This document shows positions 44,773 through 47,016 of a stretch of 64,000 nt of DNA, piece by piece. The notes under the pieces are model-generated. The model did not search any database and was not told where the DNA came from. It worked only from the letters and a program-made list of their open reading frames with translations. Within the stretch, counting starts at the first letter, position 1; every line of letters begins with the position of its first letter. The position numbers were made by a program, and so were the translations under genes. This DNA is from Bacteroidota bacterium. GTDB lineage: Bacteria; Bacteroidota; Bacteroidia; Chitinophagales; Chitinophagaceae. The stretch lies in assembly GCA_005798905.1 (NCBI GenBank), contig SYIK01000011.1:1-64000 (forward strand). Direction: 5' to 3'.

Positions 44773-45803
44773 TAGATTGCAGAAGTAAATTGTTTTAAAA
44801 AGCGTACATCGTTTTCGCTAAAAAGTCGAATATCGTTAATTCCGTATTTTAATAAAGCAGGTCTTTCCACTCCCATTCCAAATGCAAATCCGGTGTATTT
44901 ATTGGAGTCAATTCCACAATTTTCTAAAACATGTGGATGGACCATTCCACACCCTAAAATTTCGAGCCACCCTGTTTTTTTACAAACGCTGCAACCCGCA
45001 CTATTACACAAAGTACAGCTGATATCCATTTCTGCACTTGGTTCTGTAAATGGAAAATAGGAAGGCCGGAAACGAATTTTTACATCTTGACCATACATCT
45101 CTTTTGCAAAAAAATAAAGTGTTTGTTTCAGATCTGCAAATGATACATGTTCATCAATGTACAATCCTTCCACTTGATGAAAAAAACAATGGCTTCTTGC
45201 ACTGATGGTTTCATTGCGGTAAACACGTCCTGGACAAATAACGCGAATGGGAGGTTTGTTTTTTTGCATTTCCCGAATTTGCGTATTACTTGTGTGTGTG
45301 CGCAAAAGCCAATCGGGATTTTGTTGTACATAAAAAGTGTCCTGCATATCACGGGCAGGATGGTGAGCTGGTAAATTAAGTGCGGTAAAATTGTGCCAAT
45401 CGTCTTCAATTTCGGGTCCTTCGGCAACTGCAAATCCCAAGCGCTGAAAAATAGTGATGATTTTATTTTTCATCAAACTAATTGGGTGTCTGCTACCCAG
45501 CGGCATTGGATCTCCAGGAAGTGAAAGATCAATCCGAGAATCAGAAATTGTAACTGCTTCAATAGTTTTCAGTTTTATAGTTTCATATTTTGATTCCGCT
45601 ATTTGTTTGAATTCATTTAGAATTTGTCCGAATTCTTTTTTTCTTTCCATCGCAACATTTTTCATTTCTCCCATCAGCTCTTTCACTACTCCTTTGGTTC
45701 CCAAATATTTTATGCGAAAAGCTTCAACAGCTTGTGTGTCGTTCGTTTCAAAAAGTTCAATTTCTTTTATTAAAGATTGTATTTGTTGCAATAATTTCTC
45801 CAT
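44772..45803 (-). CDS. pheS: Phenylalanine-tRNA ligase alpha subunit
   Basis: 343 residues from ATG 45803; the longer frame to 45845 would cross the -7 motif. It activates phenylalanine as part of the alpha2-beta2 enzyme. The N-terminal coiled coil, motif 2 RTHTSNTQIREM, ICPGRVYRNE and motif 3 FGMGVERPALLKYGI are intact. pheT is not adjacent. A -7 motif lies 4 bases upstream of the ATG. A divergent arginase-like gene begins 74 bases away. Confidence 0.95.
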   Translation of the reverse strand: MEKLLQQIQSLIKEIELFETNDTQAVEAFRIKYLGTKGVVKELMGEMKNVAMERKKEFGQILNEFKQIAESKYETIKLKTIEAVTISDSRIDLSLPGDPMPLGSRHPISLMKNKIITIFQRLGFAVAEGPEIEDDWHNFTALNLPAHHPARDMQDTFYVQQNPDWLLRTHTSNTQIREMQKNKPPIRVICPGRVYRNETISARSHCFFHQVEGLYIDEHVSFADLKQTLYFFAKEMYGQDVKIRFRPSYFPFTEPSAEMDISCTLCNSAGCSVCKKTGWLEILGCGMVHPHVLENCGIDSNKYTGFAFGMGVERPALLKYGINDIRLFSENDVRFLKQFTSAI

Positions 45804-45876: not shown

Positions 45877-47016
45877 ATGACAGATTATTTAAAAATATCC
45901 GACTTTCTTTCACCTGTTAGCAAATCCGAAATTTCTTTAGATCAAGGATTTAAAGATGGCCAAATTGGGAAAGTAATAGATGTATTTGATGAAGATGGAC
46001 TGCCAAATATTGAGAATGCTGATATTATTTTTATTGGATGTGGAGAACAGCGTGGTAGCGGTTTTCAAATGAATTACGGAAACGGTCCGGATGCAATTCG
46101 AAAAGAATTTTATTCGCTTTATTTCTGGCACCAAGATATTCGACTTGCCGATTTGGGCAATCTTCGTCAAGGAGAAGATTTGAAAGATACTTATGCTGCC
46201 TTAAAAACGGTTATTGGCGAATTATTGAATGTAAACAAATTAGTTGTGTTGCTTGGAGGTTCGCACGATCTTAGTTTAGCGACCTATTATGCATTTGAAG
46301 AAAAAAAATCGTTTATCGAAGTTTCCAATATTGACGCACTTATTGATATTAATATGGATTCGGATTACCGAAGCGATAATTTTTTGATGGAAATGTTAAC
46401 CAAAGAACCAAATTTTGTTCGTCATTATAATCACATCGGTTTTCAAAGCTATTATGTGCATCCACGCATGTTGGAAACCATGGACAAGCTGCGCTTTGAT
46501 TGTTTTCGTTTAGGGACTATAAAAGAAAATATTGAAGAGATGGAACCCGTTTTGCGCGGTTCGCATCTTTTGAGTTTTGACATTTCGGCGTTGGCTTTTT
46601 CTTGTGCGCCAATAAATACAAATTCTCCCAATGGATTTAATGGAGAAGAAGCTTGTGCGTTGATGCGTTATGCAGGCATGAGTCCGAATATGGGAGCAAT
46701 TGGAATTTATGGTTATAATCCGGAAAAAGACCAACACAATCTTACTGCTAAAGAAATAAGCCAAATGATTTGGTATTTGTTGGATGGACGTAGCCGTGGA
46801 AGAAAGGAAGTTGACTTGAATGAGAAAACATCTTTTAACGAATATCAAATTGCATTTGCAGAAGTAAATACTATTTTTTTACAAAGCAAAAAAACGGGAC
46901 GATGGTGGATGCAACTTCCCGATAAAAAATTTATTGCTTGTAGTTATAAAGATTATTTTCAAGCAAGCCACAACGAAATTCCTGAACGTTGGTTACGCGC
47001 ACAAGAACGTAGCTAA
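45877..47016 (+). CDS. Arginase-fold protein with altered metal site
   Basis: 379 residues from ATG 45877; the longer open frame upstream is antisense to pheS. It has the ureohydrolase fold (arginase, agmatinase, formimidoylglutamase). By eye, GGSHDLS (127-133) keeps His130, DINMD (157-161) keeps both Asp but has Asn159 in place of the His of DAHxD, and SFDISALAFS keeps Asp235 but has Ser237 in place of the second Asp of SxDxDxxDP. So two of six manganese ligands are changed. A C-terminal block GRWWMQLPDKKFIACSY and NEIPERWLRAQER looks strongly conserved and is not part of arginase. It may be a non-enzymatic or one-metal member. Database labels of formimidoylglutamase would be doubtful. Confidence 0.8.
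   Translation: MTDYLKISDFLSPVSKSEISLDQGFKDGQIGKVIDVFDEDGLPNIENADIIFIGCGEQRGSGFQMNYGNGPDAIRKEFYSLYFWHQDIRLADLGNLRQGEDLKDTYAALKTVIGELLNVNKLVVLLGGSHDLSLATYYAFEEKKSFIEVSNIDALIDINMDSDYRSDNFLMEMLTKEPNFVRHYNHIGFQSYYVHPRMLETMDKLRFDCFRLGTIKENIEEMEPVLRGSHLLSFDISALAFSCAPINTNSPNGFNGEEACALMRYAGMSPNMGAIGIYGYNPEKDQHNLTAKEISQMIWYLLDGRSRGRKEVDLNEKTSFNEYQIAFAEVNTIFLQSKKTGRWWMQLPDKKFIACSYKDYFQASHNEIPERWLRAQERS

Follow-up and report, generated by a model that had tools for sequence, protein, structure and literature searches.

A probable pseudo-ureohydrolase carried by almost every sampled Bacteroidia genome, with a plausible accessory role in type IX secretion

The window, which is the whole 64,000-nucleotide stretch of DNA that was analysed (contig SYIK01000011.1 of assembly GCA_005798905.1, Chitinophagaceae), carries an open frame for a ureohydrolase-fold protein of 379 amino acids plus stop (Table 1). 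Upstream lies a divergent pheS-like gene, named by reading; downstream is a gene for a 2-phosphosulfolactate phosphatase family protein, whose best match (188 bits) stays below the curated cut-offs. A longer mechanical open reading frame, starting at a GTG at 45454, was rejected because the alignments of close homologues begin at residue 1 and the added stretch overlaps with pheS, which lies on the opposite strand. Inspection by eye shows no export signal on the protein, which is therefore probably cytoplasmic. The host genome (1.86 Mb in 19 contigs) encodes two further arginase-family genes, both with all six metal ligands; the best models for these two intact paralogues are arginase and agmatinase, at scores below the respective cut-offs.

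Table 1. Coordinates of the gene and of the features of its product, in window positions.
Feature	Coordinates	Strand	Basis
Putative pseudo-ureohydrolase gene	45877..47016	+	Open frame, Pfam Arginase match, Bacteroidia-wide matches
Ureohydrolase-fold core, residues about 17-314	45925..46818	+	Model against formiminoglutamases, agmatinases and arginases: Z 28-36 among the 50 matches listed
H130, matching the first metal ligand, kept	46264..46266	+	H in 78/80 close loci
D153-A154-L155-I156-D157, degenerate DAHxD, Leu155 replacing the ligand His	46333..46347	+	Alignment
D235-I-S237, degenerate DxD, Ser237 replacing the second Asp	46579..46587	+	Alignment
G279, where intact ureohydrolases have Glu	46711..46713	+	Alignment
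C-terminal domain, residues 312-379; conserved motifs RWWM, C-x3-DY and P-x-RW	46810..47013	+	Conservation, profile reach, prediction

The original prediction regarded the ureohydrolase fold as clear, and profile and structural model agree. The Pfam Arginase profile matches residues 49-301 of the window protein at 72.4 bits, against a cut-off of 22. An AlphaFold2 model of the protein, built from a 50-row alignment (mean pLDDT 93.9), superposes over residues 25-309 on the formiminoglutamase of T. cruzi with Z 35.7 and rmsd 2.1 across 276 residues, at 18% identity (VIA-align). Profile match and fold, with Z up to 35.7, together place the protein in the arginase superfamily.

How much of the ureohydrolase metal centre does this protein retain? 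We aligned 112 rows, made up of 60 family rows and 52 intact relatives from the same phylum; family rows shorter than 300 residues were excluded, as was one further family member (L141). The intact relatives comprise the two host-genome paralogues, picked by their DAHxD pattern, 30 loci from the top-scoring PF00491 matches in 32 genomes, and 20 regions hand-chosen among profile matches. All six ligands are found in 0/60 family rows and in 48/52 intact relatives, a set in which choosing by best Pfam score favours intact motifs; the other four relatives have five. In the window protein the six columns read H130, D153, L155, D157, D235 and S237, and the alignment thus leaves four of the six in place, H130, D153, D157 and D235, the number originally predicted. 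The reading of Ser237 as the replacement of the second Asp also stands: Asp occupies this column in 52/52 intact relatives, in 1/60 family rows and in none of 80 close loci (titles mostly Chitinophagaceae or unnamed Bacteroidetes). The lost His of DAHxD had been assigned to the wrong residue, Asn159, and is Leu155 in the 112-row alignment; His is present there in 52/52 intact relatives, 4/60 family rows and 1/80 close loci. A phmmer alignment to 1xfk leans toward Asn159, a candidate that we rejected, as 3m1r and the 112-row alignment both give Leu155.

Other positions of the old active site vary as well. Residue 130, which we take to be the equivalent of arginase His101, is His in 11/60 family rows and Gln in 34/60, and its state (His or not) requires at least seven changes on the tree. 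Glu at position 279, presumably the substrate-side Glu of ureohydrolases, is found in 52/52 intact relatives, in 28/60 family rows and in none of the 80 close loci, all of which have Gly or Asn. With Gln at 130 in more than half of the family rows, and with so few rows keeping His155 or Asp237, it is unlikely on these alignments that the family as a whole depends on a two-metal centre. Two relatives from outside the Bacteroidia (L234 and L238) have Asn for the first His ligand, and the enzyme of T. cruzi may naturally have Asn there too, since PDB entry 4myn is titled as its N114H variant.

We take positions 155 and 237 to correspond to arginase His126 and Asp234, which bind the second metal only, and the four kept residues to be the ligands of the first metal. 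These four occur together in 76/80 close loci, so one metal could still bind there, and the Chitinophagaceae proteins could conceivably be single-metal enzymes of changed chemistry, with H130, D153, D157 and D235 holding one ion at the first site. We consider this improbable, however, since the four residues coincide in only 11/60 family rows, with Gln the commoner residue at 130, and since the Glu at 279 is replaced in every close locus. Given that 11/60 count, a function common to the whole family would not need metal.

Does the protein nevertheless deserve an enzyme name? The best NCBIfam model for the window protein is hutG (TIGR01227) and its closest fold is formiminoglutamase, as would be expected of an ordinary formimidoylglutamase whose ligands had been missed. 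That possibility is nonetheless highly improbable, because the lost His and the lost Asp are each present in every intact relative and because the hutG score is 73 bits against a cut-off of 229.15, while eight intact relatives from the neighbouring part of the tree, for all of which hutG is the best NCBIfam model, score 183 to 272 bits, two of them above the cut-off. A score below the cut-off is by itself a weak argument, as six of these eight intact relatives also fall below it; the family member in L147 reaches 103.5 bits. A formimidoylglutamase identity of the window protein is not supported. With two of the metal-holding residues absent and the protein kept almost throughout the class, an enzyme label is probably wrong, and the original warning that such labels may mislead was borne out as far as the hutG profile tests it. 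Because a protein in nearly all sampled Bacteroidia scores nearest to formimidoylglutamase and yet is short of the metal ligands for that chemistry, histidine-degradation annotations that rest on it would be unsafe.

An active ureohydrolase is expected to have six metal ligands, and Leu155 and Ser237 take the place of two of them here. Judging from alignment and model, the window protein is very probably not a working ureohydrolase; ligand loss combined with purifying selection on the gene (below) makes it a pseudo-ureohydrolase as we use the term. Such a protein could be the inactive partner of an active ureohydrolase within a mixed hexamer, for which PMC11271267 provides a precedent in MetCb, the dead subunit of metformin hydrolase and an arginase-family pseudoenzyme without a metal centre. 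Candidate partners exist, in that the host genome has its two other arginase-family genes and another PF00491 match is present in 30/32 genomes. Two genomes (G149 and G251), however, have the family member as their only PF00491 match, and 28 neighbourhoods each show one family-profile gene although the profile also contained two intact paralogues, which leaves the mixed hexamer a slim chance.

The protein continues beyond the ureohydrolase core into a C-terminal domain, in agreement with the original description of about 60 extra conserved residues. Across 50 rows F334, W344, C355 and Y360 never vary, and the same holds for F334, W343, W344, C355 and Y360 across 45 rows. Predicted alone, residues 312-379 fold with a pLDDT of 89.5 into four strands and two helices. 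In a profile search over 148 genomes of the phylum, the match extended into the C-terminal part in 37/37 Bacteroidia, reaching at least position 378 of 389, and in 0/111 other genomes, where no match passed position 318; these totals include 53 genomes without a profile match, 33 of which were unlisted and counted as non-Bacteroidia from row order. Relatives of the domain were found neither in Pfam (best match among 45 members, E 0.015) nor among PDB sequences (best match, E 0.19); Foldseek returned no matches at E ≤ 0.001, and VIA-align no fold relative (best Z 3.9). The domain may have a known fold.

How widespread is the family, and does it have a single origin? A P0001 match at E ≤ 1e-5 was found in 276/295 Bacteroidia genomes, the host genome included, and in 240/253 good genomes (completeness at least 90%, contamination at most 5%). 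The matches in G061, G096 and G098 are weak (between 1e-10 and 1e-6), and that in G057 is in pieces. For the 19 Bacteroidia genomes without a P0001 match, a profile search returned nothing in 13, and the other six gave no more than weak, partial matches (E 4e-5 to 0.003) that do not extend beyond position 312. The disrupted gene of G057, a one-contig genome, contains an in-frame stop (L138), perhaps a sequencing error. G061 harbours a strongly eroded relative, which the family profile matches only from position 171 onward (L141); G130 and G161, which like G061 belong to family f52, gave no match.

In a maximum-likelihood tree built with a quick method from 94 rows, after 18 near-duplicates of the 112 had been dropped and with the ligand columns kept, the 50 family rows form one clade (SH-aLRT 100) whose neighbours are non-Bacteroidia rows (support 84). 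The family is under strong purifying selection, as seen in the closest 25 of 238 pairs: dN/dS (Nei-Gojobori) ranges from 0 to 0.04 for 24 of these and is undefined for the remaining one. One clade, no full ligand set and low dN/dS match the original proposal of a branch that had dropped or changed catalysis while remaining under selection, the loss of catalysis itself being probable on sequence and model.

Where does the gene lie in other genomes? We examined 58 loci from other Bacteroidia (L085-L142), comprising the 29 best P0001 matches and loci of hand-chosen genomes, with flanks of up to about 1.5 kb. A topA gene is adjacent in 25 of them and porP in 27; both are present in 24, with the family gene between them. 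Among 20 wider, hand-chosen regions, eight (L147, L148, L150, L151, L152, L154, L158 and L160) show the gene, topA and type IX secretion genes in a single run of like orientation, some of these runs ending at contig ends; the run in L150 stops after PorP, and that in L154 is without PorP. In L147 the neighbours score above the cut-offs of the NCBIfam models of type I topoisomerase, PorP, GldK, GldL, GldM and GldN. Two adjacent GldN-cluster genes end one of the type IX secretion runs (L152:945-2861). The order topA-gene-porP is found in the early-branching loci L133 and L128, and is thus plausibly ancestral; L135, which branches beside them, lacks a porP neighbour.

The arrangement around the window gene is different. 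Genomes of the Chitinophagaceae type have the gene away from topA and the type IX genes, and topA, PorP, GldK and GldM are near it in none of the 80 close loci, 69 of which extend for 1.5 kb or more to each side. These loci have pheS within 600 bp in 51 cases and dacB in 27; the phosphatase gene downstream in the window recurs in none. SprA and GldM are present in the host genome, where GldK, GldL, GldM and GldN lie together on another contig.

Is the gene inherited together with type IX secretion? Of the 253 good genomes, 237 carry the gene together with SprA, three carry the gene only, eight SprA only and five neither (Fisher p 8e-6, in a test that ignores kinship and for two traits that are both near ceiling). 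The eight genomes with SprA and without the gene are G017, G107, G130, G170, G199, G226, G242 and G290, seven of which have GldM, a marker that was checked in 25 genomes only. The three converse cases differ from one another: G256, at 99% completeness, has an uninterrupted gene and no SprA, no GldM and no GldK above the cut-off; G040 has GldM and GldK, with SprA not found; and in G059 the gene lies near a contig end, so that the absence of SprA may be an assembly gap. The type IX arrangement of G040 is itself unusual, with gldL-gldM and gldN-gldK in opposite directions (L184). Strict co-inheritance with type IX secretion was rejected on these 3 + 8 exceptions. Since there are genomes with SprA only, and since G256 has the gene alone, the protein does not look strictly necessary for type IX secretion, nor does its use look confined to it.

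These exceptions would also fit a pseudoenzyme that serves a housekeeping function outside type IX secretion, its gene order being no more than an inherited neighbourhood. The separation of the gene from type IX genes in 80/80 close loci fits such a role, as does topA, which is no secretion gene and is as constant a neighbour as porP. We nevertheless judge this alternative rather unlikely, because topA-gene-porP recurs in rows whose identity to the window protein is 26 to 42% and reaches back into the early branches L133 and L128.

Our main reading, to which we assign a probability of roughly 50%, is that the family is a class-wide pseudo-ureohydrolase that acts as a binding or scaffold protein, plausibly as an accessory of type IX secretion; the odds that the job of the window protein itself concerns type IX secretion are about even. 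The core would have derived from a formimidoylglutamase-like enzyme. The metal-centre ligands were apparently lost, and the small C-terminal domain of four predicted strands and two predicted helices apparently gained, before the family radiated. Read from the tree, the original neighbourhood was plausibly topA - gene - porP - gldK - gldL - gldM - gldN, and given this ancestral order beside porP-gldKLMN the likeliest job would be that of an accessory in building or regulating type IX secretion, with the C-terminal domain and the face of the old active site as possible contact surfaces. In its most specific form, a dead enzyme recruited once at the origin of the Bacteroidia as a dedicated cytoplasmic accessory of type IX secretion and gliding with its own new C-terminal domain, we hold the proposal tentatively, at somewhat less than even odds. 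If the secretion link holds, the protein would be an overlooked cytoplasmic accessory of type IX secretion.

How does the family compare with known systems? HutG (T. cruzi 4myn/4mxr, B. subtilis 3m1r, V. cholerae 1xfk) shares its fold over residues 25-309 (Z 30-36), and the nearest tree relatives of the window protein have hutG as their best model; the window protein, in contrast, is without the His and the second Asp of the metal centre and has an extra C-terminal domain. Pseudo-ureohydrolases are already known, MetCb being an example: like the window protein it is an arginase-family pseudoenzyme, but its partner is an active subunit encoded by a paired gene (PMC11271267), whereas the 28 neighbourhoods drawn here show no adjacent partner. 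We found no class-wide pseudo-ureohydrolase with an extra domain among secretion genes in the open-access literature, most subscription papers lying outside that scope. The arginase-like protein of T. brucei, which going by a paper title reportedly lacks a binuclear manganese cluster, is a further point of comparison, but it is eukaryotic, and we know of no C-terminal domain in it like that of the window protein. The envelope proteins PorP and GldKLMN form the type IX core with which the family gene shares one run in several lineages; the family protein differs from them in having an enzyme-derived fold and in not being strictly co-inherited.
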